NCBI GenBank assembly: GCA_964019415.1
Contig: OZ025869.1
Coordinates: 6,644,882 to 6,708,881, forward strand
DNA length: 64,000 bases
Origin: Ianthella basta
Taxonomy: Eukaryota > Porifera > Demospongiae > Verongiida > Ianthellidae
Direction of reading: 5' to 3'
The number at the start of each line of letters is the position of its first letter. The first letter of the stretch is position 1. Below, piece by piece: positions 1 to 49,667 of the stretch. Position numbers and translations under genes: made by a program. Under the pieces are notes generated by a model, which saw only the letters and a list, made by a program, of their open reading frames with translations, was not told where the DNA came from and made no database searches.

Positions 1-360
1 CCTATTCCTATTTCAAATCTGAAGTCAGTCCTAACCTTACATGTTCAAAGCAAATTCCAACTGGAAATCTGAAGTCAGACCTAACCTTAACACATGTTCC
101 GAACCCATTCCATTTTCAAATCTGAAGTCAGACCTAGACGTAACACATATTCATAACCCATTCTAACTGAAATCTGAAGTTCAACCTAACCTACACATGT
201 TCCAAACCCATTCCAATTTCAAATCTGAAGTCAGACCTAACCTTACATGTTCAAAGCCCATTCCAACTTGAAATCTGAAGTCAGACCTAACCCTAACACA
301 TGTTCCAAACCCTGTTCCAGCTTGATATCTGAAGTTGGACCTAACCCTAACACATATCCC
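1..360. repeat. Tandem repeat block, 50-54 bp unit
   Basis: About seven degenerate direct repeats. The word TCTGAAGT recurs at 18, 68, 121, 173, 224, 274 and 328, so the unit is 50 to 54 bases. Units carry CCTAACCCTAACACATG-like segments that resemble degenerate telomere repeat. Open frames across this block are by-products of the repeat and are not called as genes. Confidence 0.9.
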
Positions 361-1058
361 GAACCCATAGGGTGTGTCGACCATGGCGTTCAGCCAACTC
401 CCAAGCCCATAAAGGACATGCCCTAGTCTGTGTCCTCCATGGCATGCAGCCAACTCCCAGACCCATAAGGGACAATACCTAGTCTGTGTCCCCCATGGCG
501 TGCCACTAACTCCCAGACCCATAAAGGACATACCCTAGTCTGTGTCCCCCATGGCATGCAACCAACTCCCAGACCCATAAGGGACAATACCTAGTCTATG
601 TCCCCCATGGCATGCAACCAACTCCCAGGCCGATAAGGGACAATACCTAGTCTGTGTCCCCCACGGCATGCAGCCAACTCCCAGACCCATAAGGGACAAT
701 ACCTTGTCTGTGTCCCCCACGGCATGCAGCCAACTCTCCCGGACCCATAAGGGACATGCCCTAGTCTGTGTCCCCCATGGCGTGCAACCAACTCCCAGAC
801 CCATAAGGGACAATACCTAGTCTATGTCCTCCATGGCATGCAACCAACTCCCAGGCCCATAAGGGACAATACCTAGTCTGTGTCCCCCACGGCATGCAGC
901 CAACTCCCAGACCCATAAGGGACAATACCTAGTCTGTGTCCCCCATGGCATGCAGCCAACTCCCAGACCCATAAGGGACATGCCCTAGTCTGTGTCCCCC
1001 ATGGCATGCAGCCAACTCCCAGACCCATAAGGGACAATACCTAGTCTGTGTCCTCCAT
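361..1058. repeat. 56 bp satellite array
   Basis: Regular array of about 12 units. CTAGTCTGTG or a variant starts at 423, 479, 535, 591, 647, 703, 761, 817, 873, 929, 985 and 1041. The period is exactly 56 bases, apart from one 58 base unit. Each unit contains CCCATGGCATGCAGCCAACT followed by CCCAGACCCATAAGGGACA. The array is well homogenised and stops about 10 bases before the stop codon of the SET-YR gene. Confidence 0.95.
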
Positions 1059-1068
1059 CTCAGGTGCA

Positions 1069-4000
1069 TTAAGGCCTGATGCGCGGGAATTGTGCAATTA
1101 CTCGTAGTATTTTATAGTGTGCGAATACACTCTCTTTGTACTGCTCTAAGAACTCACGGCATACTTGCAGGGAGACCTTCCCTGTTTGAAGGTCTCGCTC
1201 CTCCAAAAAGGTGCGTATGGACACCACCTCCTCTTGACTGAATGGTTTCCGTTTGGGTTTCAGTGCAGGGGCTTCTGGAGCTGGTTGGTCCTCTTCCTCG
1301 TCTGAAGATGAAAGTCGAGCCCTCTTCTTCCCATTTCTTGTACTTTGGATTACTTTGTATGCTCTGAGTCGGTCGCTTTGCGCTGTGAGTGCAGTGTAGT
1401 AACTGTAGACAGGAAGGGACAAATGGGTTAGGGTCTAGGCCATACAACTGTACATGCAGTGCTATAGATTTAGGTAAACAATCACTTACTCATTGGCCGT
1501 CTTCACAGAATGTTGCATAAGGTTAGCCACGTGCCTCCTCTCATTGTCGTCAGCTTGACCGGCAACAGATGTCGCAATCACCTTTCTGTTCGCCGTTGGG
1601 GTTGGTACTGCTGACAGTCCAGCCGTCTTTGCGATTTGGGCCAGGTCGGCGACAGGATTCGCACACTTTGTTCCAGTTGTCGTGGCAAACAAGAAGTCAG
1701 AGGCATCTGTAAAGCCAATTTGGGGCCTCACAACATCTCGGAACACTAAGAACCACCGGAGCACGTCCTCTTCCAACACCACCTCTGCATCCCCATACGC
1801 CAGGGCAGTCTTATGTTTTGCAGTTCGGAGGAATCCTGCCTGCCCTCCTGCAATTTCCACTCTGACTACACGTCTCGCCTCCTCTAGAGTGGTGTTCATT
1901 AATGCTCCTGGTCTTGGCCCATTCCTGCAGATGAATGAAACAACGAATGCACTAGTTCGATTAGGGTTAGGGCTAAGGTTAAGTTCAAGCTAGGGTTAAG
2001 TGCAATTTAGCTCAAGAAATTATAGGTTTGCCTGACAACCGGAATCATGCTGAATGAAGAGCATAACACGCTGATACATAACTCTCACCGATAAAGGATC
2101 TGCATAAACATGAAGCGTCTACAGAAGAGGTAATCCTCCTGTGCAATCTCCATTTGTCTTCCATTCAACTTCTGAACAATGGTGTTGAACTTGTCGATGA
2201 GCACTTGTGATCCTATCAACTTGGATACTGCCTCTGGGCTGGCTTCAGCATATTGTGGTATCTCCACGGCCTTCTTTGATTTGGCATCCTAGATGGAAGA
2301 GAGTAATGCAAGTGAATGACCATGATTAACACACTTAGCTACATAACACTAGTGTGAGTCCCCTAGCCCTTGCAATCAGCCACCTCAACAATCCTTAACC
2401 TTTAAAATGCATACTCACCTGTTCTTTTAGTTTGGAAAAATGAGAATGCCAAGCTGTCAGCTTTTGGCGCATTCTGCCAATCTTGGCCAAAGCATCTGCT
2501 GGCATTGGCTGGGTCAAAGCCTGGCCATCATCCTGGATGACTGTCTCCATGAAGGAGAGGAATGTGCGAATGCACAATATCTTGCTAAGGATCCCAGCAG
2601 CCCTGAGTCCAGCCTTTTTCAGCGCTTCATTGAATTCGTTGCCCTTGCCCACATTGAATGCCATGGTTAAGTCCAAGTGAGTTGGCTCCGCAAAGAAGAG
2701 ATATTTGGAGACATCCACAGCAATTTGCTTTGCTTGTGACGCAGACCGCTCTTTTCCATCGACTGTCTGTAGCCAATCTAAGAATGTCTTCAGGTCCCCT
2801 TCTAATGGATATTTCCCAAAACTGATAGTGCTGCCCTGTCTTATCCTGCTGCCAATAATATTGACTTGAGCCCTGTGTTCCTTCTGTGCTGCTGGTGATT
2901 CATCACCAGCAGCTGGCTCAACCTTGGTCTGCCGGGTGACCGGCACGAGTGCCTTCGCCTTGGCAACAAGGAGGTCGCGGTCACGGTCTGCAATGGATGA
3001 CAAAGGGGATAAGCTACAATTTTACAATTTAATTTCCCCTGAAGTAGTAGTAATGCTAATTGAGATGTAATTAAGGATTAGAGTTAGGACCACTATGAAC
3101 CTTGCAAAACAATTGGGACTGCAGCTGTACCCTAACATCAAACATGCATGTGCAGTGCATACCTGAGATGTCCTTGTGGCAAGTCTTGATATGCTGTGGT
3201 AGCTTCAGAACATGAGCAGCACATCCCAGCACAGGACATGGCCTCCTGATCCTGACTGCACCCTTCTTCTGGGGAGGCTGCTCCTTCCCATCACTGTTGC
3301 TCCATGGTAGGGCTGCATCCCTGATACCATAATCATATAAGAGCTCCTCCCCTTGACTGATATCTCTAGTGGCCATAATGGCCACTCTCTTCCTGCCATT
3401 GACCACTAGGGCCCGAAACAGCTTCACATTTGTGTTCTTTCGGGCATGGTTGATATATCGTCCATACCTATCGAACGATCTGGTGGCATCTATAGCCATG
3501 TCTTCAACATTCATGATGTAGCAGCCTTCGTCATTCTGACGGTACTCCTCTTCCCTCTGCTTTGCTTCCTCCTTGTTGATGAGGTCACCAGCATACTCGC
3601 AAACATATTGCCCCTTTTTCAAAGGGACTTTAGCGAAGACACCCCGCTGGTTGTCTTGTCTCACTTTCACAGCGAGCAGCCGTTCCTCCTGCTGGGTAGA
3701 CGCTGACTGGAGTCCAGTCAGTGCAACTTCAACTGGTAGTTTCACAATTGAGGACTTGACATCTACAGGATTAGAATGCATATCATGACAATTGCAAGTA
3801 CCCTGACAGTTACAACTGCATCCTAGCCCTAACCATGCAACTGCATGTTTGTACACTGTACATACTGTAGAAAGTACCCACAGTCAACAGCTTAACCCTA
3901 ACCCTAACCCTAACCCTAACCCTAACCCTAACCATGCCAAGCATGCATATACATCATGCAGAACAACTGTACACTTACCATGTGCCCTGGTGAGTGTGTC

Positions 4001-4546
4001 TTCCTCAATGGAAGAAGCAACATCAGGTGCAGAAGTGCATTTCCCAATGGCAACAGCATTGGCTGAAGTGTCTGCCTCATCAGCAGTAGTGATGACCTCA
4101 ACGGAAGAAGCAACATCAGAAGTGCCTTCTTTGACAACAGCATTGGCTGAAGTGTCTGCCTCATCAGCAGTAGTGTTTTCCTCAACGGAAGAAGCAACAT
4201 CAGAAGTGCCTTCTTCGGCAACAGCATTGGCTGAAGTGTCTGCCTCATCAGCAGTAGTGTTTTCCTCAACGGAAGAAGCAACAGTGCCTTCTTCAAGCTC
4301 TGTACTTTGAATGAGATGCCGAGGCCATCTTGCATACATCCCTGTGTAAAGCATGGTATCACCCTCAACAGGGTCAGTGTAGAGGGCCTGCCCCATGGAT
4401 TCCACCTCGTAGATCTCCATTACAACATCCCCTTCAGGGATGGGGTGGCCATGTAATAGTCTTCGAGTACAGATGTACCCATATGCCTGCACCTCTCCTA
4501 GCTCATTCAAGAGCTTGTAGGTTGTGTTGTCAAGTGTGGCTGTCAT
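1069..4546 (-). CDS. SET methyltransferase - zinc knuckle - tyrosine recombinase fusion, six exons
   Basis: Exons on the minus strand are 4546-3979, 3762-3163, 2987-2419, 2288-2089, 1924-1490 and 1402-1069. All introns are GT-AG, and the exons total 2706 bases, giving about 901 residues with no internal stop. Exon 1 carries four copies of an acidic 28-residue repeat. Exon 2 (about residues 190-389) is a SET domain closest to KMT5A/SETD8, with RGVFA (cofactor loop), DATRSFDRYGRYINH and EELLYDYG. It ends in a C2HC-like knuckle (CPVLGC...HIKTCH). Exon 3 (390-579) is helical and fits a recombinase core-binding domain. Exons 4-6 form a YR catalytic domain: Arg in YRNGPRPGAL, Lys in KHKTALAYG, Arg in ANRKVIAT, His in LMQHSVKTAND, then the paired tyrosines YY. 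The C-terminus is a charged tail plus a small helical domain. The ATG at 4546 follows a possible acceptor (TACTCCAG), so a 5' UTR exon is likely. Expected roles are lysine methylation and DNA strand exchange in the nucleus. Whether it is a mobile element or a host gene is unknown. Confidence 0.85.
3896..3931. repeat. Interstitial telomeric repeat (CCCTAA)6
   Basis: Six exact CCCTAA units lie inside intron 1 of the SET-YR gene, and they read TTAGGG on the coding strand. A shorter degenerate match (TTAGGGTTAGGGC) occurs near 1963 in intron 4 of the same gene. Confidence 0.9.
4001..4300 (-). repeat. 84 bp in-frame coding repeat of SET-YR exon 1
   Basis: Four tandem copies of an 84 base unit encode a 28-residue acidic repeat with the core DVASSVEENTTADEADTSAN. 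The copies differ by a few substitutions and all keep frame, which argues the exon is or was recently translated. Confidence 0.9.
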
Positions 4547-5221
4547 CCTTCCCTGGAGTACAATGGAAAAAAGTCATCCATTTTAAAGTGTTTTTTTATT
4601 GCATTTGATGTAAATTAAGCTTGTGTGCTTTTCAAACACTGCATGAATATCCTATAATGTGTATGTTGATTGCAGCGGATTTACGCAGTTTCAAATTTTT
4701 ATTATAACTGATCATTTATGTTGTCTTAATTAAGACTGAGTATATGTATATGCATGTGCATGACACAGGAAATACAGAGAATATAAAGGGAAAGTTAACG
4801 TAATAGGGCATATGAAGAAAACTTGGCATCCAAAGTTTGCTATGCCATGCAGCAAGAGCGCTATTTTGATTAAAGGTGGTTTAGCTACGTATAAGCTTGC
4901 ATGATCATGAGTAGTGCATAACAAGTATTTTGAGTTATAATACTTGTGTGTGTGTGGGGGGGGGGGGGGGGGGGTTGCAGCCCCAACTCAAAATACTTGC
5001 TCCCGGTCGCTGCTGTGTTATCAATGTATAGTAGCTATAGCAACTAATTTTATGTATTGTATTAACACACTTGTAAACACACTTCATAAGCAAGAATGAA
5101 CACAAATGATCGAAGCTGACACAAATAGAGCCAAAAGATATGGACACACATTTGCACAATGGCACAGTACATTAATTTACATACCTTACACACAGTTTGC
5201 ACATTCTCAGAGTTGCCAAAA

Positions 5222-5253
<32 letters not shown>

Positions 5254-6480
5254 ACACATTGAAGCACACCACACCACTCACACCACTCTCACACGCACGC
5301 AACCACCCACATCAAATAAGATCAATTATTAAACGGTACCGTTGACTGAAAACTTAAAAGGCCGTTAATCCTTTCCATTCCAGATGTATTACATATGTGT
5401 GTATGTGTATATTTATATCCTATCAGTTTGTGTCAAGCTGCAGCTGTCACTATGGGAGTGTATGACACTGAAACTTCTGTAACTGTGTGCATGAAGATTA
5501 ACATTTAATGTATTATTTATTGTTGTTGATGTGTGTGATCCATTGACATCCCATAGTCTCTGGCTCTTGAACCTTGTACCTTGCACTCTAGCCCGTCAGC
5601 AACCCAAACCCCACCCAATTAGTTGGTGGTGGAAAAGACCACCAGTGCAAGTAACAGAGGGTCAAAACCACATGCCGGTAGAGTAAATGCAATAGTTGGT
5701 GGCAGAAATGACCAACAGCACAAGTAACAGAGGGTTAGGACCACATGTAACTAACTATATTATATCTCTATAGTATGCAATTGTACATAGTTTAGGTCTT
5801 AAGGACTGTAGAACTTCTAATATATAATATATATATGTATGCATGTGTAGCTATACGTTGTACATTGTACTTTGAAGAATTAATCAAAAGAAAAATATAT
5901 GTACCACCGCCACATACAACCACCAGCACCACCACCACCACACAGTTCAAGTAACAATGAGACCACCACATGTGGCAGTAGAGTAAATGCGGTAGTTGGA
6001 GGTAGAAAAGACCACCAGTGCAAGTAACAGAGGGTCAGAACCACGTGTGCCAGTAGAGTAGATGCACTAGTTGGTGCAGAAAAGACCACAAGTAACAGAG
6101 GGTCCCCACTTTGCCTTCTCTGACAGCAATAACCAGCTTTCTCCTTCCCGGACTAATCAAACCACATTGGTAAGAGCAATTCCATGCATGTGCATGTATC
6201 ACTATGTGCACTGATGCACTGTTGTTGTATCTGTCACACATATGTATGTGCGTCATTATCACCCATGTCTGTCCATGACTGTAGCACATCACTACTGGAG
6301 GAGTTCTCTTCTATGCCATTAGCCCTATTAAATTACTTGGCCAGCTATTGAGATGTGAGACAATAGCTGAAAAGTTGATTCGTTACCCTGATCTAGCAGT
6401 GGATCACATAACGTTAGTTGATGTATATTGCACCCACTAGCTACTTGCTACCAAGCTTCTCTCACAAATTGTCAATTTAT
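4547..6480. other. Non-coding stretch with microsatellites
   Basis: No convincing gene was seen. It holds a short GT run followed by about 24 G at 4946-4974, a CA repeat at about 5219-5260, and AT-rich DNA. The sequence just left of 4560 may contain the 5' UTR and first intron of the SET-YR gene. Confidence 0.6.
5600..6110. repeat. Dispersed minisatellite-like repeat
   Basis: Degenerate units of about 65-75 bases contain CAAGTAACAGAGGGTCA, CCAGTAGAGTAAATGC and TAGTTGGTGGCAGAAA. They appear at about 5630-5760 and 5930-6100. A diverged cluster with the same words lies at about 56420-56640, preceded there too by a CACCAC run. Confidence 0.65.
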
Positions 6481-6746
6481 GTCTTTGTATGCATCCAGAG
6501 AACTGTGGCAGGGTAGAAGCTGGTTGTCCGAGGAGCTGTACCACTCAAGCTCTGCAACTACTTAAGATAGTGAAGTTTTTCCACAAGATTTTGTATCTGT
6601 GCTACATGTTGAGTATGGAATTGTAGTAGGAAGGATTGTCAAGTTTTTCACAGAGGTACGGATATCTCATACTATAGTGTGACTGTCTTACACGTGATTG
6701 TAGTGCCCTTATTGCAATTTATTATAATATAAATTACATTGTGTAG

Positions 6747-9110
6747 TCTGGCAAGATGCAGCTGGAATGTGATGTGTTTCTGACACATGTGCAAGCTGGT
6801 AGGGATGTGCCAGAAGAATCATCTACTGGGGACTTATTCCTAACTGAAAGAAAATTGCTACCCATTGAGTTAGTTGTATCAGTCACCCTGACTGCAAGAC
6901 CTTACAGATTTTGGTACAAAAAATGTGGGCAGTGGGAAAGAGCTTCACGTGAGGTATGCCATATTGTGGCATATACCAGTACCATTAAGTCATTGACTCT
7001 GCATGTGACTACTCTGCTGTTTGCAGGCAGGAGGTAATTAACATCCTTACACAGCATCCCTGTAAGGAAATTGGAGGCAGATGCCCTGTAGTGTGCTGTC
7101 CATTGCTACTCTACACTGATGACACCAGCGGGAATCTGACTAAGAAGTGGAACAAGTTTGATGTTTGGTGCTTCCTACTTGGTGCACTTCCACGCTCAGA
7201 GAATGCAAAGCTTGAGAATATACACTTCATTTCCTGCTCCAATTCTGTATCAGGTGAGAATGATAGCTATTGTGTGTACATGCATGTGTATCATGTTATG
7301 AGTGTGTACTTTTGTGCAGTTAATGACATTTTGAGTGCTTTCCTTACCATGCTGGTCTTAAGCGAGATGTGCTACTGGTGGCACCAGTGCTGCAGTTGAT
7401 GTGTGATAACCCCCGAGCTTCGGAGGTACTGTGCCATCTGGGGAGAACTGCAATCAAATTTTGCTGGATGCGCATAGTATGTCAATTATTATGATTTGCC
7501 AGAATAGTATTACAAATGTGGACCTGTATACATGTATACATTCATTTTTGTAATTGTAGCTAACTATGTATAATACTTTGACTATGCAGAGAGATAAGGC
7601 TTCTCCTGCAGTGGTAGGAGAGTTGAGGACGAAACAGCAGAGCTTAGATAGCCACAGAATTATTAGTGCGAGTATGCCAGCTATGCAGAAGACCCTGTCA
7701 ACACAATTTGGATAGTATCTCACACCAAGCCCGCTGCTGGAGCTTAGTTTCGCCTTCAGGTATGTCTTAATTACTGTACATACACCAAGATGCATAAGCA
7801 TGATACATGTGCATGTATGCATACTGGTTTACATGTACAGGTTGTTCACACCTCGCGCAGGGGAACTTGGACATGGGCCCAGGATTTAGATTAACGTCTC
7901 CAGAGAGTAACAGGCAGGTGGTAAGAACGAGTAGCAGATACTGCGATCTCTGGTGATGGAAGATACAGCTACTGAACTGCTTGAGTAGACGGGTTCTTTG
8001 CCGACTTTCACGTCTGGTGATGGCAGGTAACGGCAATCCCCGCTGAGTGATCACTACGTACAATTCCAAGTTAGTGAGCTCACAGGGATGTCTTGGGTGA
8101 GTAGAAACAATCGCAGAGCGCTCTGACCACGGGACTTGCAACAGGATAAACAGCCAGATCAAAACTAGCACATGCACCACCGCCATCTTTAATCACTTCA
8201 CAAGTGTAGCAACATGGCTGTTCATCTTGCAGTCTGTGTGCATGTGTATCTTTCTGTGTGATGCAGGCAAACTGGCAAGGGCTTATCAGACCTCCTAGCT
8301 ACAACACAAGTCCAGCACTTTCTCTTTGGCACACCAATGCCATCACTTGTGGCTAAGAGTATCTATAAGCATGGAGCGCTGAGAAAGGTATCCATGCATG
8401 TGCAGTTTGTGGCAATTGTGCATGTGCTTATATGGTTACATGTGAGCAATCTGTTTCTGCTACACTATCTTAATAGGTTCAGTCGCAGAGAGCCATTAAG
8501 GTGGGAGATGTAGCAGTCAAGCTTGCAGGCAGGACCTCCAAGTTAAAGGACCACCTGTCATTGGCATCGCTTAATTTTGAGAGCCTGTGTCTGTGTGGAG
8601 ATGCGTTCTATTGTGCTGAGCAGAGCAAGCTAGTCCACATCGGAAGCTACGTGAAGTTCAAGGACTTAACTGGCACGGTATGTACGTATTATTTTAGCTA
8701 TTGCAATTACAGTGTCTGTCGACTGTCTTGGTTTGTACAAGTCATGCATACATGAAGTACATATCACACTTTATTCTCTCTCACTGCAGGAGCAGTATGG
8801 CACAATGGCTGCTGTTTTCTGTTGTAATGGGGACACCACAGCAGTGCTAGCACCCTTTCTCCCGTTGGGAATGGGCGAGATGGATTGTCCCAAGTTTGTT
8901 AGGTCCTTGGACTTGTGTTCAGTGGCTGCAGCAACTATTGTAAGCAAAGTTTCCTTTGTACTCTCATGTGGCAGGGGTCGTGCTTTTAGAGAGGCTACAA
9001 GTGTCCACAGAGTGGAAAGGGAAGAAGCAGAACTAACAGGGTCAGTTTCTTTTGTGCATGACTGCAACAACGAAGTTTTCATCCTCAACTGTTTCCGCCT
9101 GTATCACTAA
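6747..9110 (+). pseudogene. Decayed multi-exon gene with DDTSGN motif, probably transposase-derived
   Basis: Exons supported by GT-AG edges and reading frame are 6747-6953, 7031-7253, 7320-7476, 7590-7759, 8267-8387, 8477-8677 and 8790-9110. A further upstream exon is likely at about 6506-6655. The joined protein includes LLLYTDDTSGNLTKKWNKFD, LPRSENAKLENIHFISCSN and LLVAPVLQLMCDNPRASEVL. I know this motif series from large repeated families in animal and fungal genomes but cannot name the family with certainty. Exon 7320-7476 needs a frame change, and stops occur in exons 6506-6655 and 7590-7759, so this copy is probably inactive. A LINE fragment lies antisense in the intron 7760-8266. The last exon, with EQYGTMAAVFCCNG, runs to a stop at 9110. 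Confidence 0.55.
7841..8210 (-). mobile_element. CR1/L2-like LINE, 5' fragment with 2A-like peptide
   Basis: Minus-strand open frame from the ATG at 8186. It starts MAVVHVLVLIWLFILLQVPW, and after about 100 residues has a hydrophobic run followed by LLLSGDVNLNPGP, then MSKFPCARCEQPV. GDVxxNPGP is the 2A ribosome-skipping signature reported in CR1/L2-type LINEs. The following Cys pattern fits the PHD-like finger that often comes next in those elements. The consensus Glu (D-V/I-E-x-N-P-G-P) is Asn here. The copy breaks off near 7841 and lies inside an intron of the gene around it, in antisense. No RT is present. Confidence 0.65.
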
Positions 9111-25390: not shown

Positions 25391-25419
25391 ACAGAGGAGT
25401 GGGGAAGGAACTACTGCTG

Positions 25420-25545
25420 TCACTAAGGAAGGCACTACTCATGTTACCGTTTGGGAAGGCACTACTCATGTTACCGTTTGGGAAGGCACTACTCATGTTA
25501 CCGTTTGGGAAGGCACTACTCATGTTACCGTTTGGGAAGGCACTA
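25420..25545 (+). repeat. 27 bp in-frame coding repeat
   Basis: The unit GGCACTACTCATGTTACCGT TTGGGAA is repeated four times with a fifth diverged copy. It encodes EGTTHVTVW. It occupies the exon just before the SET exon, the same position as the acidic repeats in the first SET-YR gene. Confidence 0.9.
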
Positions 25546-26929
25546 CTCTCGTTGCCGTTGAGGATGGCACAAATCAACATCTCAAGAAAGGCTGTTCATC
25601 TGGTGAGTGTACAAGCTTTGGGATTGGGTTTGCACTGTAGTTGTGTATGTTCTGCATGATAGCTGGTTGGCATTGGGTTAACACTGTAGTTGAGCATGTG
25701 TTCTGCATGATAGCATGCTTGGCAGGCAGGTTAAAAGTGCTCATGGGTAATTGATGGGCTACATGACGTATAGCATACTTGTGCTATGCTACAATGCAAT
25801 CAATTCTCTCCTGTAGATGTGAAACCAGCCATGCTGCTGTCTCCGTTCGAGACTGCACTGGCTGGCTTGAAATACTCAAGTGGCGAGAAGGAGGCTGTCT
25901 TGCTGTCAGTGAAACTGAGCGACGATGGCCAACGTGGTGTGTTTGCGGCTGTGCCTATCAAAGCAGGTCAATATGTATGTGAATATGCGGGCGAAGTCAT
26001 CTTCCTAGATGAGGCTAAGGAGCGTGCTCGACAATCTCCAGCTGAACACTGGCAAAGGGCGAATTTATATTAGACCCATCCAGGAGAACCTAGAGCTCCT
26101 CACAGCAGAAGATTGTGAAGACTTCGATGAAGAGGTAACTAAATTGAATGCATGCATATTACTCTGGTATTGGTATACTTATACTGTGCATGCATTAGAC
26201 ATCCTGCTCCAAATGGGGCATGCATGATGTGTGCTATAATATGTTGTATTAAAATGGGCCTGCACACTGGCTTGCATAGATGTCAATGCATATAGGCTAT
26301 CTATTTAGACCATGGCCAGTTAATGCATGAAATTTAATACATATACCATTTTTGAGTATGCAAGACTGTGTGTACATGCATTACACTCCAGGGGGAGGCC
26401 ATCTGGTGGAGTGGCCACACTCATGGCACTTGCCTCTCTACCCTTCTGACATGCTGGTGCACCCTTGTCTGCAAAGGCTCATGCTGGCAGCAATGCGAGG
26501 CCACCTTACATAGCATACGCAACCACACGTGCACAGCGTGAGCGCTATCATAATAATAATTTTATCTTGCATGCAATATGGCCGAAGGTGGGCATAAGGC
26601 AAGTGGAGAACATGCACATGCAGTTGTTACTCAATATTTCAATCAATAATTATTCACTAAATGACACATGCACGTTTTGCCATGACAGGACACAATGGAG
26701 TTGGACAATGCCATTTTGGACGAGGACAGCGCAGAGTCCATGGTGAGTGCGATCCAAACTCCCATCATAGGTAGCACAATTGCCACGTTCATGTCACCTT
26801 TCTACCTGCAGAGCAAGGAGGAACTCCTGAGGGCCCTGCAGCTGGCCTTACAGGCCTTGGTATGCAGTCATGCATGCGTTCACTCTCGCCCACACCTACC
26901 CACCCACACATACATGCACACAATGCAGT

Positions 26930-28915: not shown

Positions 28916-31199
28916 CAAAACACCAATCCACTCTAACAAGGTACCCCACACACCAACCCATCCATCTTAAGAGAAACACTGCATGCCCCACCTACCTCAC
29001 ACTGTTTATATTGCAACAAAAATTCCATAGCCATACAAACATACAAGTGAATTGGCGGCATAAATGCATTACATATGTGGCTTCTCTCTTATGCAGCAGT
29101 GACAGTGATGGTGGTAGTGACTACCAGCCACCAGCCAAACGGCGGCATCAAGGGACTGCCTCCAATAAAGGAGGACGCACAAGGAGCTACCTTGATATTC
29201 ATGCTCCAGAGCACAAGGCACTACGCGAGAAAATGGACAAAATGAGACGCTTTTTCACGAACCCAGTCAGCCTACAGAGGGGTCGGGACCCCATTGCATC
29301 AACCACATGGGAGAGAGTACAGCTGCACCATCTACGTAAGTCAGTGTACCTGCCACTTGTTACCCACCCATCCCCACGCACACAGACTATGCCAGAGGCT
29401 CAACACTACGTAGACCCCACATCATGTCTATCTACACACTGTACAATTGAGACCCCCTCACCCGCTAATCCCTTTCCCTCACACACACTTAGTCTTCTTT
29501 GCATACGTAAAAGAAGAACAGCAGACCAGCCCCACCCTTGAGTGCCTCTTGGACGCTAAAATGATTGAGGGGTTCATGTTAACCCTGAAAGAAAAGCCTC
29601 TCCAGGGCATCACCATTTCACGATACCTCGAAAACCTGAGGTATGGCCTACGCAACCTCTACATAAAGGATGGAAAGGAGTACAGCGAGCAAGAGCACTA
29701 CATAAACGTGGGCAGACTTGGGGAGCAGTGCCGTAGGCAGGTCGTCTCCTCTACAGCACACACTGAAGCTGGCAAGCATTGCAAGCACAGCAGAAGTGGG
29801 TCGAATGGTGGGTCTGAGGGGGATTTGACAACTTTACGTGGTGGGCTAAGTGTCAAAGCTATACCAAAGAGTTGCATTGGAGCAACTCAAAGCCTTACAT
29901 ATATGTACTCCACGGTGTCCATGCCACCCTCCCCTACCCTCCTCCCTTCTCTATGCAGGGATGACATTCTGGCTGCAGTCAAAGACCAGAAGGGTCTCTT
30001 TGAAGGAGCAACCGGCCCCCGCATAAAGGCCCAGGAGTCTCAGAAACTACTGGCCATGCTCTTTTACGCCGCCCTCCCACCTGGCCGTGCAAAGGAGTTC
30101 CAAACGTTACATGTGGCCATCCATGACAAACTACCTATGCCAGTGGTGGACCAAGCGAGGCCAAACTGCCTCTACATCACTACAGATGGCAGGCAAGCCT
30201 ACCTTCTATTGGCTGATTACAAGACTCACAAGAGTTACGGGGACCACTTCCTCCCCCTGGACGAAGACAGTCAGCTATTGAGTCACCTTGTGATACATCT
30301 AAATCACCACAGGAAGGTCCTGCTGGGAGCAGGACAACAGACCACTGCCCTCTTCTTAGTGAGTACAAGACATACATATAACTATATATGGTACACCTAT
30401 GCATGTATACACCACCACCGGAATCACCACTATCACCATCATACTGCAGTTGTTGTTCTCTAACTCAATTCTTTCTTTGGTACAGAATGATAGGGGAGCA
30501 CCATACAGTGCCAGTTCGTGGACTGCCTACATTGAGGGAATCTTTGAATGCCGCATTGCGAAAAGATTGGCCCCACTTTGCTGAGATCCATTTTCGTTAC
30601 CCACTGTGAGAAGTCAAACCTTTCAGAAGCAGAAAAGGAGTCTATGGCCACAGCCATGCAACACAGCCATGCAGCACAGCAGGTGAGCAAGCACTGACAT
30701 GTGCATTCAAACCCTACTCACTCCATTGCAATCAGCATGCACAAACATTTATCCACCCATGAAACTATGCCTACCAACTTTAACGTGAATCCCTATCCAC
30801 TCGTGAATACGCAGCAAAAAGAGCATTACGACAGACGCACACAGGTAGACAGGGAAAAGAAGGGCAGGAAGTACACCGGAGGCCTACTTGAGAAGGCCGT
30901 CCTTGGCAACCACCACCGCTGAGGACTCGGCCGGGCCATCCACCAGAGAGCCACCAACTGACAGCGACAGTGACAACGAAGGACCTGATAGGAGACATTG
31001 TCGCAATTGTGCTGCCAGACTCCACCACAGTGAAGCCAAAAGTTGACGTGGGCAAAGTCATGCGGATTGACAAAGCCAAGACGATGCTCAGGTATTTGCC
31101 ACTCAACCACATTGGAGGTAGTGGGAGAATGTGGCTTTTTGCTATGAGTTACACATCCTGAGGCTGGAACAGGTGGAAGATGCAATTCAAAGTGCAAAT

Positions 31200-31622
31200 G
31201 ATGGCAATGAACGTGATTGTCAGCTTGGTTTGGTTGATTACTATGGTGCATGTTACTACCCACTCAGAGTACCAAATGAGCTTGAGAATCAATCCAGCTA
31301 TTGGCAGCTCAAGCAGTTTCGTTCAAGACACGCACTAGTCCTTGGAAATGATACTGCTGTCCTAAAATTGTTTTTTACTATCAGGAGCAAGCCTACCTCA
31401 CCATGGACTGTTCAGTCTTGTTCAGTTTTCCAATACCAAAGGCCGCTACGGCACTGCTGGGCAGCTATTACATCTTTCACGTTAGCTACCCAAGAGAACA
31501 TACTGGCTTCTTCACATACTTCCCAAGTTCCCAAGACAGTGGTAAGTGAACAGTGGTGGACTGACATGGTAAGTGCAACTGAAGAGTACACGAGCTGGCC
31601 TTTGACCAAGTTTGGAGTACAG
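31200..31622 (+). repeat. 420 bp repeat, copy A
   Basis: Nearly identical to 34841-35263, from GATGGCAATGAACGTGATTG to GGAGTACAGT. A frame in it reads LFSLVQFSNTKGRYG..GQL and is reminiscent of an ankyrin-like repeat, but the protein is not identified. Copy A directly follows the decayed YR C-terminus. Confidence 0.9.
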
Positions 31623-31624
31623 TG

Positions 31625-32035: not shown

Positions 32036-33590
32036 CCTACCAATCTGGGCTTTATGATACTACTGGGGATTGTGCAGCTACCAGGTATACGTGATTATTG
32101 GAAGCAAGATGCAATATATCACTATTTGCCTGTAGCAAGTAGAATTTCACGATGAGCTCCTTCACTACTTGCACTTTGCTGACACCACCACCCTAGCACC
32201 ACCTCACACGCCAGGATACAACAAGCTTGGGAAAATCGCGCCAATCCACACAATGCTTAGACTGATTGGCTACAATTTGGAATCCAGGCAAAAATATAGT
32301 GTAGATGAAGCGATAATCCCCTTCAAGGGCAAGTCAACTCTGAAGCAGTATCTGCCCTTGAAGCCTATCAAGTGTGGGATTAAGGTTAGGATGAGGGCAG
32401 ATGCAGACAATGGGTTTGTGTCAGCATTCGAAGTGTACACTGGCAAAAAGGGCAACACATCAGAGAAGGGGCTGGGAGCCAACGTAGTAAAAGGCTTGAC
32501 TGAACAACTACAAGGCACACACCGTCATGTATATTACGACAACTTTTTCGCTAGTGTGGACCTTGCACTTGACCTAATGAGAACTGGGCTGTACAGCTGT
32601 GGAACCCTCAGAAGCAATCACAAAGGTTTCCATGCCTAATTGAAGCCATTTGTCAAGAAGGGATTTGATAAGAGGCATAAGTAAAACATACCAGTAAGGA
32701 AACCTTACAGTAGCTGTGTGGCAAGATAATAAACCGGTTATACTAATCTCTACCAACTCAGACCCTACCACTACCAGCTCCATAACGCAAAAAAAGAGAT
32801 GGCACAAGCACTAGCTACTCCTGTCTGAATTCACTCGCATTATACAACCAATATATGGGTGGAGTCAATTGTAGTGATAAACTCCATGGATACTATCATG
32901 TGAGACAGAAAAACAGAAAACATTACAAGTATATATTTTGGTTTTTGGTTGACTTGGCAATCACCAATGCCTACGTACTTAGCCAGTCAAACCCAGACAC
33001 TGGAGTAAGGAACGTCAAGGACTTCAGAACATCCCTTGCCAAAGAGCTAATTGGCACATATGCTAGCAAAAAGAGAGTAGGGCGCCCGTCCATTGGACTG
33101 CCTATGACTAGATTCTGCCAACACCACTTTCCTATGCGAGTGACATCCAAGCATCTTTGCCACTACTGCCACAATTACAAGAACAGAGGAAAACTGTTAG
33201 GCACTGCAAAAACTGCCAATTGTATCTTTGCCACACTGGCCTGGATGAAAGTGACTGCTTCCTGCTATACCACACAAGATACATTGAATGGCCCACCAAC
33301 AATGCTGATAAGAAAGCTAAAGGAAGAAATGGTGACAAAGCAACTGAATTACTATGTGAATAAGGACCTAGGCAGAGCAGGGAATATTTGGAGACTGAAG
33401 TCCACAGTAAAATTGACCATCTGATGAAGAAAGGGAGGACATACCACACAAAGTACCAAAAGAAGGGGAAACAGGAAAGGTAGTAACCAATGACGACATT
33501 GACATTAAGGCTGCCACTGCAGCTTGGCCCAACTTTAAAACCTTCTTGGATAAATTAGGAATCACCCAGCCCTTGGACCAGGTGCGGTAG
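32036..33590 (+). pseudogene. PiggyBac-type transposase relic
   Basis: Open stretches 32169-32639 and 32855-33424 carry PiggyBac DDE motifs: YNLESRQKYSVDEAIIPFKG, LKQYLPLKPIKCGIKV, HVYYDNFFASVDLALDLM, and MGGVNCSDKLHGYYHVRQKN. The first two catalytic Asp positions are kept (SVDEA, YYDNF). The third, normally GGVD, is GGVN. Upstream of 32169, LLGIVQLPGIRDYWKQDAIY reads in another frame; stops lie at 32638 and near 32813. The Cys-rich C-terminal domain (CQHHF..., CHYC) is partly kept. With these changes it cannot encode an active enzyme. No TTAA-flanked terminal repeats were identified. Confidence 0.85.
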
Positions 33591-33599
33591 ATGATGCTG

Positions 33600-34840
33600 G
33601 CACTTTATCAAACAGCAGTCGACAGTCATAGACAGAAGAAGAGCAAAGCTATCTTGAAGCGGGTGATGATGATTTGGACAGATTAGATAGCTGTCCCTCA
33701 CGTGCCAGCACATCCACACATGACAGCAATAGTGATGACACAGAGGAGGTGGAAGTACCAGTTAAAAGGCAGAAAAATTCACAAAGTCCATAGTTCACAC
33801 ATATGACAGCAACAATGCATCGTGGATACTTGATGCACTGCCAACAACTGCATTACTGACAAGGTGTTGTGGAGTCTCTTGCTGATATTGGGTAGGATCT
33901 GGAAGCCAGCTCGCTTCAAACTTACAGTTGTGTTTCTAACACACATTGTGCAAAGCATGATAGACTAGCAATGGTACGAGCAAATACGGGATCTCTCACA
34001 CTCTTGCTTGCTGAACAGCCTTCCATCTGCACTTCAGCCAACCAAAATGTGGCACATGCACTTAGAAATGAACTGTAGCCTTGTCTTTTGATTCATGTTA
34101 TGTACCCTGTCATGGAGAAATAAATGTGTACAGTCAGAAATATAGTGCTCATCTATTGCAGCACTTTGCCTGATTCTGTGCTTTTGTGCATGCAGTGTTT
34201 AAATAGCTTTTCTAGCTCTTCGGTACTTCTTTGTGGCATTGGTGCTTTGATGTTAAGTGCCACTGCTACTGCCTTGACAGCCTGTGCAGTGCTTGTTGCC
34301 ACTTCCATGTCATCGCATGAAACCTCCCTGAGGATGGCTGTTGCAATGAGCAACTCCAAATTGGTCCATGGACCAGTCTTTGGTTGTTCACCTGTGGCAC
34401 ACATGAACTGTTGCCCCTTTCTGCCTTTCAGCCCTTGTGCCTGATAGTGAAAGTGGGCCCTTGCCCTCTTAGCCTTGGGCAATGCATTGGGCTTTGGCAG
34501 TTTGCCATGCACGTTGCGACAGTTCTTGCACCTGCATCAGTAAGTACATGGCTGAGATGCTCTGTGGCATGGACACCTGGTTGAGTACATTTGCCCTACT
34601 GCGGCACATGGCTCAAAGCATGAATTCAAAGACCTTCCCTCCCCCGTGGAAACATCTCAAAGGAAAAGACAACCATGATCAGGTCTCACGATCATCACAG
34701 TTTGTAAAAACAATAATGTCATTAATACAAACACATCACAATGTGCATGTGCATATAATAGTGACATTGTGCATGTGTGATTAAAGTAAGTATGCAGTAC
34801 CTCCTGGAAACTTCATCAACTTAGGCTGAGTGGTGTGATG
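33600..34840. other. Degraded transposon-like DNA
   Basis: It holds an acidic coding-like tail near 33640-33800 and a minus-strand open frame at 34153-34512 (119 residues, starting MHGKLPKPNALPKAKRARAH). No domain was recognised in that frame. Its predicted helices (ELLIATAILREVSCDDMEVA) could be real, but nothing supports a function. Confidence 0.4.
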
Positions 34841-35263
34841 GCAATGAACGTGATTGTAAGCTTGGTTTGGTTGATTACTATGGTACATGTTACTACCCAC
34901 TCAGAATGGTTACTACATGAGCTTGAGAATCAATCCAGCTATTGGCAGCTCAAACAGTTTCATTCAAGACGTGCACTAGTCCTTGGAAATGACACTGCTG
35001 TCCTAAAATTGTTTTTACGATCAGGAGCAAGCCTACCTCACCATGGACTGTTCAGTCTTGTTCAGTTTTCCAATACCAAAGGCCGCTACGGTGCTGCTGG
35101 GCAGCTATTACATCTTTCACGTTAGCTACCCAAAAGAACATACTGGCTTCTTCACATAATTCCCAAGTTCCCAAGACAGTGGTATGTGAACAGTGGTGGA
35201 CAGACATGGTGAGTGCAACTGAAGAGTACACGAGCTGGTGTTTGACCAAGTTAGGAGTACAGT
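34841..35263 (+). repeat. 420 bp repeat, copy B
   Basis: Second copy of the repeat at 31200-31622, in the same orientation, 3.64 kb downstream. Together the copies flank the PiggyBac relic. An open frame (34835-35125) reads LFLRSGASLPHHGLFSLVQF without a recognised family. Confidence 0.9.
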
Positions 35264-35716: not shown

Positions 35717-36704
35717 TGGCAACACATTTCAAGGCGATATTCCTTCCTTTGATCCTTCCTTCTTTCCTCTCTCTTGAGAAGGACGCAGTGAATTCCTATG
35801 GATAGAGGTGCAGTGGCGGCTGTGCTGAAGGAAGGTGAACAGCGAGTCAGCCGTGTCAGTGGTTATTATACTTTCTAATATTGCAATAATACATTAATAC
35901 GCTTAGGTTTCCATAAAATTGCATGATTGTTGAGGTACAGACAGGTCTCCCCCCAAGGCTATGCTGTAAAGGCCTTCCACTTCGTGTAGAGGTCACCTAA
36001 GGGAGTGCTGTGTGTCAAGCACTAGCTAATCCCAGTACATGCCACCAGTTGTGGTAAGATTTACTACGCATCATGAATCTATTGGAGAAAGTTGAAATAT
36101 GATTACATTACCTCTACTTTCAACCAATTATGCTTTAACCTTTGCTGCACTGCCATACTTTATGCCTGACTCCAGGCACAAGGCAGACAAAAAGAAAGTC
36201 CTCAGCAACAGTATTTCATTATCACCTGAATGCTGAGTCTCTGGTCTGCCTTGAAAGCTATATTGGTGGAAGCAGTTGACCCTTCACTTATCCAAATACT
36301 GGACTGTAAAGGACCGTGTGACTGCCATACAGCCGTGTGAAAGATTACTGAACCTCTTGAACTTCTAGAGGGGAATGACTATTAAGCTGGGTATGGCTCT
36401 GTATCCATATGAATCTGCAGCATAAATCTTCCAGCTAGCCAGCATGTAGCAGAGATACAATCTTAACACACCTAAAATCTATACATCTCAGAATCCATTG
36501 CACTCTATTACTCTCTGACATATCGTTGCAACAGGCTGGAATGATGGCTTTACAATAGGCTTTGAAGCCTAGATGGAACCCCCCAAAAATGCTCTGATCA
36601 ATGAAAACTCAGAAGCTGATCCCAGCATGTTCAGCAGATGAACTCAATTGGCACTGTTGTACAATTGGAGTAACATCATGAAATTGTATGTCCATGATCA
36701 TCAT
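35717..36704. repeat. Long dispersed repeat, copy 1 left part
   Basis: 35717-35800 (CAACACATTTCAAGGCGATA) matches 40591-40670. 36069-36704 matches 41952-42575 with about 20 differences by eye over 630 bases. The repeat is interrupted at 36704 by the RTE-like LINE and resumes at 39960. No protein was recognised in this part. Confidence 0.85.
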
Positions 36705-36817
36705 TAAAATGGCTGACGGGCTGACAACCGTCTAATGGAGTCCGGACATCGACTCTAATAGAGTCATAACATTGACTCTAATAGAGTCATAACATCGACT
36801 CTAAATGTCTACCCTTC

Positions 36818-37837
36818 TTGTCCATCCGTTTCCAACTCCTCTATTCTAACATGGTACTATTTAAGAAGAGTGCGAAGAAGCAACGTTCCACCAGCCGATT
36901 TTCCATTGCAACTTGGAACGTCCGCGGACTATCAGCGAAGGAAAAGAAGGAGCAGTTGGGCAGAGATTGTAGCGCATACGCCCTCAATCTAGTATGCGTA
37001 CAAGAGACAAAAGTCCCAGAGTACGACGAGATCAACCTTTCATCTGGACACAAGTTGATTTTGATGCAGCAAAAGACGGCCAAATATCGTGGTCTTGGCT
37101 TCGTTATTGGGCCCCATCTAATACCACACGTAAGATCCTGGTGGTACGTCAGCGATCGTGTAGCTGTCATCAATATTGCCATCCCTAATCCAGGAGGGAG
37201 GTTCACAGACTGCCGTGTGATCAATGCCTATGGACCCACAATGCAGAAGACAACTGACAACCCTGCACTGAGGGACAGATTCTATGCAGAACTCAGCAGT
37301 GCAGTGACTGCACCATCCCATTTCCAGGTGTTTGTATGTGGTGATTTCAACTCAAAACTGGGGCAGATGACTCTTGAAGATGAGGAGGCTGGGTTAAGTT
37401 GCTGTCTTGGTGTCCATGGCAAGGGCACTCGTAATAGCAATGGTGAAGCACTGATTCAGTTCCTCCTACATCATGGACTGTTTGCAAGCAACACAGCATT
37501 TGAACATGCTAGCCGCCACAAGACCACATGGACTGGGTGGATAAAAGATCGTAATGCCCCCTTACACTCTGAGGCTACTAAACCAGTTTACAACCAAATT
37601 GACTATGTGCTATGCAAGACCAGTGCTAAATCCCTGCTTACTGATGCTCGTTCCTATGGCGGTACTACTTTATCATCTGACCACAAGCCTGTGGTGGCCC
37701 GCCTACAGTTTGCCAACATCCCACTGGTACGGAGGCAAAGTCCCAAGAACTCCAGAGTCTTGTATGATCTCCATCGACTAACTTCTGACACTTCACTACA
37801 GGAAACATATTGCAAGGACTTAGAGAGGACCGTATGA
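36818..37837 (+). CDS. LINE AP-endonuclease region
   Basis: About 340 residues. Motifs of an apurinic endonuclease: ATWNVRGLS, CVQETKV, DRVAVINIAIPN, INAYGPT, VFVCGDFNSKLG, NQIDYVLC and LSSDHKPV. Together these are the catalytic Asn, Glu, Asp and SDH of the family. The frame may start at the ATG at 36818 or at 36851; the latter gives a more usual N-terminus (MVLFKKSAKK). It ends at a stop at 37837, where the RT frame already overlaps. A single base change near 37810-37837 would explain why one ORF appears as two. The enzyme nicks target DNA for target-primed reverse transcription. Confidence 0.9.
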   Translation: MSIRFQLLYSNMVLFKKSAKKQRSTSRFSIATWNVRGLSAKEKKEQLGRDCSAYALNLVCVQETKVPEYDEINLSSGHKLILMQQKTAKYRGLGFVIGPHLIPHVRSWWYVSDRVAVINIAIPNPGGRFTDCRVINAYGPTMQKTTDNPALRDRFYAELSSAVTAPSHFQVFVCGDFNSKLGQMTLEDEEAGLSCCLGVHGKGTRNSNGEALIQFLLHHGLFASNTAFEHASRHKTTWTGWIKDRNAPLHSEATKPVYNQIDYVLCKTSAKSLLTDARSYGGTTLSSDHKPVVARLQFANIPLVRRQSPKNSRVLYDLHRLTSDTSLQETYCKDLERTV

Positions 37838-39891
37838 TCAGAATCCAACCCAGCACTGACCCAAACAAAGCACTAGCTGATATGCTCAATTTGGTCAAAA
37901 CGTCAGCTGAGACAACCATAGGTACCATACCTACGAACAGGACAACACGTTACTGTCAAGACCACCTTGTAGCCTCTTTATCAGAAGAACAAAAGCAACT
38001 GCGCTTACGCATTGAAGCATGCAACGACTCTAACACTCGGAAAGAACTACGCAAGCTGCGCACATGCACATTAAGAAAACTAAACAATCGCCTACGTGAA
38101 GTGGCTTGTCAGAGGGCTGACCAGTTGGCCAGAGACATTGCCTCCACTGATGACAGCCGCCGAATGTTCAAGGCTGTTCAAGCCATCAAATCTACCAAAC
38201 GACCTCCACCTTTGACTGTTCACACCAAGGATGGCAAATGCATTGGCACAGACCAAGGTAAAGCTAACGCCATTAGTGAATGGTTTGCGCAACAGTTCTC
38301 TGATCAATCTGATGAACGACTGAACCCTTTCATTGGCAGTCCACGTCCACTGAATCAACCAGTTACAGCTGCTGAAGTTGCAAAGGCACTTGGATCTCTC
38401 AACAATGGACAAGCCTCAGGTCCCGACAGCATCAGTAATGAATTGTTGAAGTATGCTGCCAGTGTAATATCCACACCCCTCGCTAACATCATTAACATGA
38501 TGTTTGAGCAACACATTGCGTTAGACTCCCTGGGTAAAGGCATTTTAATAGCCCTGCCTAAGCCTAGGAAGCCACTGGGCCCTCTATCCAGCCTACGCCC
38601 CATTGTACTTCTAAACTGCACCAGAAAGGTCATCTCTCTTGTTGCTCTTCACCGTATACGAGAGAAAGTAAACATCTTCACTGGTGCCTCTCAAGGGGGC
38701 TTCAAACAGGGCCGCAGTTGTGCAGACTTAGTCTGGGCACAGCGTATGCTCATAGCCACAGTACAATGCCGTCAGTGGGGTTTCCATAAGATGGGCATCG
38801 ATATGTCCCGTGCATTTGACACCATCAACAGAAGTAAAGCACTGGAAGTCCTAAACATGGCTGGATGCAATGAAGATGACCATCGGTTGGTCAGAGCTCT
38901 ATTGGCCAACACACATCTAACTGTCAGAGTCAAAGGCACACAGTCAGCTTGGTTCGAAACATCCATTGGGTCCCCTCAAGGGGACTCACTGTCCCCTGTA
39001 CTCTTCACTTGCTATCTTGCAGCTGCCCTACGCAAAGTTCGGGAGAGTACATCATGGCTGAACCCCCCTGTATCAGATCTAGGAATGCCCCTGGAGTGGG
39101 AATATGCAGATGATGTTGACTTCACCAATAATGAAAGAGAACCATTAGACCTCCTACTTCCAACAGCATGCAACATCCTTCGGGATTGGAACCTGCTAGT
39201 GAACGAATCAAAGACAGAGTTCACACACATCCATCTAGCAGATGCAGATCAGAAGGACAATAATGGCAAAGCTGTTTGTGGTAATGAACAATGGCGTAAT
39301 AGCAGATCCCTTGGGTCACTTTTATGCAGCAGTGCAGATGTATTTCACCGATGCAGTCTTGGCACTGCAGCATTCCACTCACTCTGGGCCATGTGGTTGA
39401 GGCATCCCCTCATCACACTACAGAGAAGGCTGCGGATATACAATGCGGTAGTGGTGTCCATAATGTTGTACAACTGTGGCAGCTGGGCAGTACCCCAGTC
39501 AGTCCTCGGCCATTTGGACAAATGCCATCGGCGCCACCTCAGATCCATATTAGGCATCCGCTGGCCTACCACCATCTCAAATGAGCACCTTTACATCAGG
39601 TGTGATGCACGACCACTATCAGAGTTGGTGACAGAAGCACGTTGGCGGATGACAGGGCATGTATTGTGCATGGCAACAGACACTCCAGCCCAACTAGCGA
39701 TGCGGTTTGCCTTACAGGGAGCCATGGAGTACAAGGGGAGACGTGGACGACATCAGACAAATCTCCTTGAGACCATCCGAGCTGATCTCAGCAAACACCA
39801 ACTGAAGTTGCAGTGTGAAGCAGACATCAAAACCCTGACAGAGCAGGCAACCGATAAGAACAAATGGAGAGCACTAGGACAAAAGGACTGA
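37810..39891 (+). CDS. LINE reverse transcriptase region
   Basis: About 690 residues in one open frame. RT blocks in order: GPDSISNELLKYAA, LRPIVLLNCTRKVISLVALH, GASQGGFKQGRSCADLVWAQ, KMGIDMSRAFDTINRSKALE, SIGSPQGDSLSPVLF, EWEYADDVDFTNN (catalytic YADD), and a post-RT segment with HRRHLRSILGIRWPTTISNE. The C-terminus contains ARWRMTGHVLCM and RRGRHQTNLLETI, as in RTE elements. All catalytic aspartates are present. It continues the endonuclease ORF after the frame break, so it belongs to one polyprotein. An intact RT this long points to a recent insertion. Confidence 0.9.
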   Translation: MQGLREDRMIRIQPSTDPNKALADMLNLVKTSAETTIGTIPTNRTTRYCQDHLVASLSEEQKQLRLRIEACNDSNTRKELRKLRTCTLRKLNNRLREVACQRADQLARDIASTDDSRRMFKAVQAIKSTKRPPPLTVHTKDGKCIGTDQGKANAISEWFAQQFSDQSDERLNPFIGSPRPLNQPVTAAEVAKALGSLNNGQASGPDSISNELLKYAASVISTPLANIINMMFEQHIALDSLGKGILIALPKPRKPLGPLSSLRPIVLLNCTRKVISLVALHRIREKVNIFTGASQGGFKQGRSCADLVWAQRMLIATVQCRQWGFHKMGIDMSRAFDTINRSKALEVLNMAGCNEDDHRLVRALLANTHLTVRVKGTQSAWFETSIGSPQGDSLSPVLFTCYLAAALRKVRESTSWLNPPVSDLGMPLEWEYADDVDFTNNEREPLDLLLPTACNILRDWNLLVNESKTEFTHIHLADADQKDNNGKAVCGNEQWRNSRSLGSLLCSSADVFHRCSLGTAAFHSLWAMWLRHPLITLQRRLRIYNAVVVSIMLYNCGSWAVPQSVLGHLDKCHRRHLRSILGIRWPTTISNEHLYIRCDARPLSELVTEARWRMTGHVLCMATDTPAQLAMRFALQGAMEYKGRRGRHQTNLLETIRADLSKHQLKLQCEADIKTLTEQATDKNKWRALGQKD

Positions 39892-49514: not shown

Positions 49515-49667
49515 AGAAAGGGTTGGTTCTCTAATACCAGCTTCACAACAGGGTTGAAAACCTTGCCGACGTTTCGACCAGATGCTCTGGTCTTCTTCAG
49601 GGCGAAGATAGGCTAGCGTGAGCATGGATCATATTTATAGCCTAGCATCTCATCATGCGCTGTCACC
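49515..49667 (-). repeat. Left inverted terminal repeat of the Penelope-like element
   Basis: 153 bases from AGAAAGGGTTGGTTCTCTAA to CATGCGCTGTCACC. It is the reverse complement of 50781-50933 with hardly any mismatch by eye, which suggests a recent insertion. Confidence 0.95.
49562..49607 (-). ncRNA. Hammerhead-ribozyme-like motif, left repeat
   Basis: Minus-strand copy of the motif at 50841-50886, with the same core and stems. See that entry. Confidence 0.5.

Follow-up and report, generated by a model that had tools for sequence, protein, structure and literature searches.

The genome of the demosponge Ianthella basta contains, on contig OZ025869.1 of assembly GCA_964019415.1, an open six-exon gene structure in which a SET domain is followed in order by sequence resembling a tyrosine recombinase (YR), and a second, decayed SET...YR locus lies nearby. 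Both stand in the 64,000 nucleotides (nt) that we analyzed (positions 6,644,882 to 6,708,881 of the forward strand), referred to here as the window and numbered from its first letter. Taken together, the sequence data support the joining of a SET domain and a YR in one gene, the SET-YR gene. We favor, with modest conviction, a scenario in which this gene belongs to a YR element that has taken up a KMT5A-like SET domain, one member of a repeated family of DNA elements driven by YRs. The mobility, catalysis, substrate, and purpose of the fusion are discussed below as predictions.

Rebuilt from the raw sequence, the SET-YR gene runs along the minus strand from 4546 to 1069 and comprises the six predicted exons listed in Table 1, which together measure 2706 nt (901 codons plus a TAA stop) and contain no internal stop. 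All five introns (216, 175, 130, 164, and 87 nt) have GT-AG borders and the exons are phase-compatible, so that the single frame over six exons proposed by the initial annotation is borne out. Because the two alternative frames of each exon hold 2 to 20 stops, the open frame is not an artefact of stop-poor sequence. A good splice acceptor, TTTTTTCCATTGTACTCCAG, terminates six bases 5' of the ATG, and one upstream exon may therefore be absent from our model; neither AATAAA nor ATTAAA was found between the stop codon and the window end. The linker encoded by exon 1 is built of about three repeats of 28 residues (84 bp), and amino acids (aa) 1-93 of the same exon have no match in Pfam. In the C-terminal tail encoded by exon 6 we assume a Myb-like helix region; Pfam returned matches to this tail at chance level only (E = 0.054 and 0.093).

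The gene lies in a repeat-rich end of the window. Two adjoining satellite arrays, with units of ~50 bp and ~56 bp, occupy positions 4-1058 and end ten bases from the SET-YR stop codon (1069-1071). Hexamers of the TTAGGG/CCCTAA type are concentrated in positions 1-4000, with 13 occurrences against 0-2 per 4 kb elsewhere, especially at 3893-3933 and 1961-1981, and a (TAACCC)6.8 run sits inside intron 1. Given this concentration of telomere-like hexamers, the window end may be subtelomeric.

Residues 229-335 of the predicted protein are a SET domain (Pfam PF00856, E = 1.4e-21), with the motifs RGVFA (229-233), YINHA (292-296), and EELLYDYG (328-335) by which it had initially been recognized. Searched against solved structures, the domain matched 118 distinct sequences; among the best 60, which we inspected, the top 14 are all KMT5A/SETD8/PR-Set7 (E = 6.3e-20 to 1.3e-17), followed by another SET protein (1.5e-16), KMT2A/MLL (2e-16), and EZH2 (2e-14). 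The EYxGDL, GCY, INH, and ELLYDYG segments are retained. On these database matches, KMT5A-like, the term used in the initial annotation, is a fair description of the domain, with KMT5A as the closest solved SET. Its place at 229-335 of 901 residues differs from the canonical KMT5A layout, in which SET occupies the protein C terminus (PMC10368294, in the sections drawn on here). A match to the NCBIfam AnkI/LegAS4 model on this domain (60.6 bits, with a cut-off of 550) was set aside as a SET cross-match. Across the whole 901-aa protein, a Pfam search with E up to 1 gave SET as the sole match, with no mariner transposase and no reverse transcriptase. C-terminal of SET, a Cys/His cluster (CPVLGC...HIKTCH, aa 365-385) with the spacing C-x4-C-x9-H-x3-C (or H) is present where a C2HC-like knuckle had been noted; it has no match in Pfam and would be predicted to bind zinc.

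The YR match is a remote one, with curated libraries negative and both halves of a YR found in order. Residues 390-579 and 580-810 had no Pfam match even at a threshold of E 10, a search in which the program's filters discard most matches above 0.1, and the YR part had none in PHROGs. Its sole NCBIfam match was a weak one to the XerC model PRK01287 (E = 0.019-0.022), and a phmmer comparison with solved structures returned three topoisomerase IV sequences (E = 0.24-0.82) that we took as chance matches. Because standard libraries miss this part of the protein, we built our own YR profile from 66 sequences, namely, Escherichia coli XerD, FimB, and FimE and 63 XerD/FimB relatives taken from 81 viral-contig loci; the other 18 loci lacked an open reading frame (ORF) that both reached 120 aa and contained an HxLR motif. 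The catalytic Arg, Lys, His, Arg, His, and Tyr are each kept in 62-65 of the 66 sequences. Selection on HxLR fixes the HxxR histidine, and the profile is therefore biased against the SET-YR gene.

Aligned as a single sequence with hhalign, aa 580-829 matched XerD 133-284 over 146 columns with a score of 28.7 (P = 9.4e-4; hhalign probability, 22%). None of 300 shuffles reached that score (best, 22.4), and controls (the reversed sequence, the SET exon, exon 1, and the tail) scored 10-16. Exon 3 alone matched the core-binding half, XerD 7-89, with a score of 22.0 (P = 0.0089; probability, 4.5%), a value equaled by 1 of 300 shuffles. Exons 3-6 jointly scored 29.1 (P = 0.0018; probability, 15%), with the alignment confined to the catalytic half. 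When the 98 stop-to-stop ORFs of at least 100 aa in the window were ranked against the profile, exon 5 came first (25.4) and exon 3 second (21.9); the 79 ORFs outside both loci gave a best score of 19.5, with none reaching 22, and, leaving aside XerD, FimB, and FimE, the 25 E. coli ORFs used for comparison scored 15.3 or less. Because exons 5 and 3 top this ranking and match the catalytic and core-binding halves, respectively, the YR probably extends over exons 3-6, which corrects an earlier placement in exons 4-6.

The hhalign alignment pairs GPRPGAL with the Arg-I box, PTANRK with PHxLRH, LMQHS with LLGHS, and TANDYY with TTQIYT, and Arg650, Arg759, His784, and Tyr792/793 are in register with the YR boxes. 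Lys684 falls at an alignment gap and is assigned by motif and by a block common to the second locus. The Arg, Lys, Arg, His, and Tyr positions listed in the initial annotation are thus matched by the alignment in every case except the lysine. The histidine of the HxxR box is Thr756 (TxxR) in the SET-YR protein, and the same substitution is seen at the second locus; recombinase activity is therefore uncertain, and we keep the term YR-like for the fold of the C-terminal part. The HxxR histidine varies in some genuine YRs. Of the two regions singled out for profile searches, SET is matched directly in Pfam, and the YR region, unmatched in Pfam and PHROGs, was recovered by profile comparison. Judged by the refuting condition set in the initial annotation, no YR match to exons 4-6 in profile searches, the standard libraries taken alone count against the YR. 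We find the assignment to the Crypton type unsupported: no Pfam YR family matches, animal Cryptons are described as free of further domains, and one residue of the tetrad differs.

The second locus occupies 25.4-30.9 kb on the plus strand. Its SET segment was found by tblastn of the SET-YR protein (25816-26025, E = 1.4e-18), is identical to exon 2 at 38 of 69 residues (about 54-55%), and matches Pfam SET (E = 4.4e-5); against PDB sequences it has no match at E up to 0.001. The splice acceptor of this segment interrupts a GAT codon just as intron 1 does in the first gene, at the same position and in the same phase, and the repeat-rich exon before it resembles exon 1 weakly (E = 0.14 in a 6-kb search). 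The two SET copies differ at 29 first, 13 second, and 43 third codon positions, and NG86 estimates over 69 codons are 0.40 for nonsynonymous divergence (dN) and 2.53, a saturated value, for synonymous divergence (dS). These figures fit protein-level constraint since the copies parted, and they suggest that both copies evolved as protein. Farther along lie two blocks similar to the first gene's YR and in the same order, a Lys block at 30188-30268 (41% identity over 27 residues) and an Arg/His block at 30572-30667; only 1 and 2 of 2000 shuffles, respectively, were as good, counts that flatter the similarity because the choice of blocks was guided by the tblastn result. The Arg/His block reads PT-x-x-R and not PH-x-x-R, and since its reading frame does not continue that of the preceding exon, the second YR looks broken.

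Table 1. Predicted exons of the SET-YR gene and segments of the second locus
Feature	Position in window	Strand	Content	Evidence
Exon 1	3979..4546	-	N-terminal region; acidic repeat-rich linker; phase-1 donor GTAAGT	
Exon 2	3163..3762	-	KMT5A-like SET, aa 229-335; Cys/His cluster, aa 365-385	Pfam, PDB
Exon 3	2419..2987	-	Probable core-binding (N-terminal DNA-binding) domain of YR	hhalign vs XerD, ORF ranking
Exon 4	2089..2288	-	Putative beginning of YR catalytic domain, as far as Arg-I box	hhalign
Exon 5	1490..1924	-	Putative YR catalytic core: Arg650, Lys684 (by motif), Thr756 (replacing His), Arg759, His784	hhalign
Exon 6	1069..1402	-	Putative nucleophile Tyr792 or Tyr793; charged linker; C-terminal tail; stop TAA	hhalign, motifs
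Second locus, repeat-rich exon	25392..25602 (start approximate)	+	9-residue repeats EGTTHVTVW; phase-1 donor GTGAGTG, like exon 1	
Second locus, N-terminal half of SET exon, truncated	25817..26025	+	SET	tblastn, Pfam
Second locus, broken YR-like gene	29514..30850 (ends approximate)	+	YR-like	Block similarities to first gene's YR

Of the two roles offered in the initial annotation, chromatin marking at the protein's own insertion or excision sites and a host gene built from a domesticated recombinase, the second appears the less likely. This second, decayed locus shifts the balance toward a repeated element and away from a lone host gene, and the presence of several transposons in the window (a presumed piggyBac-like element, a long interspersed nuclear element [LINE], and a reverse transcriptase) lends further support to a repeated SET-YR family. 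In an element of this kind, the YR half would bind the element ends and would cut and rejoin DNA through Tyr792/793, probably by way of a circular intermediate, after the proposal made for Cryptons. The SET half would methylate nucleosomes at recombinase-bound sites, with lysine 20 of histone H4 (H4K20) as our first guess at the substrate, and the altered local chromatin could make the element or its target accessible or allow the element to escape silencing. If this scenario is true, the SET-YR gene represents an animal mobile element with a histone methyltransferase of its own, physically joined to the recombinase, and provides a direct test case for whether transposons modify chromatin in order to insert or to evade silencing.

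A range of observations weighs against this scenario. Within the 64-kb window there is one full SET-YR copy only, and a repeat scan of positions 1-9000 found no repeat pair clearly bounding the gene, a scan in which end repeats of 4-6 bp would be beyond detection with a single copy. The five introns and the SET domain are unlike described animal Cryptons. In the SET domain itself, the NHS motif reads NHA, and in the YR part the library misses, the low hhalign probabilities, and the TxxR substitution described above all count on the same side. At the second locus, the SET stops matching near 26028, the spacing between Arg and Lys is 45 as opposed to 34 in the first gene, and the N-terminal piece of the YR-like gene has weak similarity to exon 3 (equaled by 55 of 2000 shuffles), quite apart from the flattered shuffle counts of the two blocks. 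Set against the XerD profile, the YR of that locus also fails to match (P = 0.27 and 0.055; the long ORF scored 18.1), so that its identity is drawn from similarity to the first locus and from motifs. The SET and YR there may be neighbors by chance. Because the two SET copies are only ~55% identical, no recent movement is shown.

Of the alternatives, the most serious is a host gene in which a domesticated YR, no longer moving, acts as a sequence-specific DNA-binding module that targets SET in chromatin regulation. The intact frame over six exons, the richness in introns, the replacement of HxxR by TxxR, and the lack of visible element ends in the scan of 1-9000 all speak for such a gene. There are precedents, moreover, in SETMAR, where a transposase-derived domain directs the methylase to transposon ends (PMC6326780, in the sections used here), and in Crypton YRs, which were domesticated several times in animals (PMC3212892, likewise in part). 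We nevertheless consider a host gene unlikely. The decayed SET...YR locus ~21 kb away looks more like a repeated family, as do the many KMT5A-like genes of other animals, although the link to these is a guess. Moreover, Arg, Arg, His, and Tyr are retained here, with Lys by motif, whereas domesticated Crypton YRs (DUF3504) are without most of the catalytic tetrad (PMC3212892).

It is improbable that our exon model wrongly fuses two neighboring units, whether genes or elements, one encoding a KMT5A-like SET and the other a YR. Exon 2 does continue for ~30 residues beyond its donor to a stop, so that a SET-only product is possible, and the model may be incomplete, in view of the missing polyadenylation signal before the window end and of the upstream exon that is possibly absent; the five introns, however, are short (87-216 nt), with GT-AG borders and phase-compatible exons throughout, and the order of SET and YR recurs at the second locus. 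Very improbable is an unrelated DNA-binding or structural domain in place of the YR, to which the Pfam and PHROGs misses, the NCBIfam XerC match at just E = 0.02, the chance-level topoisomerase matches (E 0.24-0.82), and the low hhalign probabilities would be congenial, but exon 3 and exons 4-6 separately match the two YR halves and supply the top two of 98 ORFs, no shuffle in 300 did as well as aa 580-829, and the blocks common to the second locus surround the Lys and Arg/His boxes.

Beyond the two loci, the window holds a wealth of other repeats. The transposase at 32136-33424 (Pfam DDE_Tnp_1_7, E = 1.7e-32 for 32136-32639) is one that we take to be piggyBac-like; near it, the stretch 31199-31623 is repeated at 34836-35263 with 94% identity. 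Positions 36785-39891 hold a LINE-like element in which an endonuclease domain and a reverse transcriptase domain are present, and a 632-bp duplication (36073-36704 and 41952-42582) is 96.5% identical. The ORFs at 49612-50795 look, as we presume from motifs, like a reverse transcriptase of the Penelope-like type whose end is GIY-YIG-like; the ORF at 49612-50283 has no match in Pfam at E up to 0.01, and a perfect inverted repeat of 153 bp (49515-49667 and 50781-50933) accompanies these ORFs. A dispersed repeat, with several copies near the SET-YR gene (5620-6104) and one 50 kb away (56414-56525), could be a small nonautonomous element.

A broader proposal, which we put forward tentatively and hold to be possible rather than probable, is that animals harbor widespread, unrecognized elements in which one protein combines a YR with an H4K20-type methyltransferase and marks its own sites, and that the unexplained KMT5A-like expansions whose genes become active in early hydrozoan and sea urchin embryos are such elements. 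In the sections of the source paper used here, up to 65 KMT5A-like genes are given for Hydractinia, 24 for Hydra, and 61 for sea urchin, and the extra genes are described as predicted H4K20 methyltransferases (PMC10368294). The same sections place SET at the N terminus in most extra Hydractinia genes and in the majority of the extra urchin genes that are expressed, report that the 13 early Hydractinia genes are nonadjacent and highly divergent, and find the C-terminal ends of the longer genes to be conserved between Hydractinia and urchin (E < 3e-43) (PMC10368294). The expansion is not general, because Nematostella has a single gene (PMC10368294). The Hydractinia and urchin genes, likened to ours by description only, resemble the SET-YR gene in having a KMT5A-like and mostly N-terminal SET, and by this analogy we suspect that the expansions are of the same kind. 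The words "recombinase," "integrase," and "Crypton" are absent from the main text of PMC10368294, its figure labels and tables lying outside that check. If the broader proposal is true, the published expansion of predicted H4K20 methyltransferases in hydrozoan and urchin embryos would have a simple alternative explanation, as a burst of SET-YR elements and not a set of new host regulators.

In the open-licence literature, with subscription papers and Repbase outside the search, we found no description of a SET-YR fusion, and no paper there brought KMT5A together with a tyrosine recombinase; the consulted parts of PMC12153100, PMC13228809, and PMC8406910 hold nothing on such a fusion. Scans of viral contigs (YR, SET, and a two-row SET alignment) and of genome contigs (YR and a two-row SET alignment) gave pattern matches in four of five and no confirmed relative, a result of little weight in collections that are not meant for animal genomes. 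The initial annotation knew of no described animal system with this domain order, a remark that needs qualifying in the light of SETMAR, of the SET-carrying HarbingerS and MuDR transposons, and of the many KMT5A-like genes, all of which are described.

The methyltransferase (MT) domain found in elements of the DIRS type, another class of YR-bearing elements, is a DNA methyltransferase and not SET. Such YR retrotransposons sometimes carry an MT domain (PMC4157794, in part), and they encode a reverse transcriptase; Pfam detects none in the SET-YR protein. Animal Cryptons (CryptonA and CryptonI) are described as having a YR without a further C-terminal domain and no terminal repeats, and a C48 peptidase is present in some CryptonF and CryptonS elements of oomycetes (PMC3212892, in the sections used here). 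The SET-YR gene is like the animal Cryptons in its eukaryotic YR, and the lack of reported terminal repeats in Cryptons is a further likeness; it differs from them in its SET domain and Cys/His cluster, in TxxR, and in having no DUF3504 match. SETMAR (Metnase) of primates joins a SET methylase to the Hsmar1 transposase and is targeted to the remnants of transposon ends (PMC6326780, in part). It resembles the SET-YR gene in that SET is fused upstream of a transposon enzyme and a DNA-binding part directs the methylase, and it differs in that its enzyme is a mariner transposase in one domesticated gene, as opposed to a YR at more than one locus. In Phytophthora, SET histone methyltransferase genes are reported in HarbingerS and MuDR transposons (PMC12730594, in part), which are likewise SET-carrying, although their transposase classes and hosts differ from those of the SET-YR gene. 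The association of a transposon enzyme with a SET methyltransferase therefore has precedents, and its pairing with a tyrosine recombinase appears to be new.

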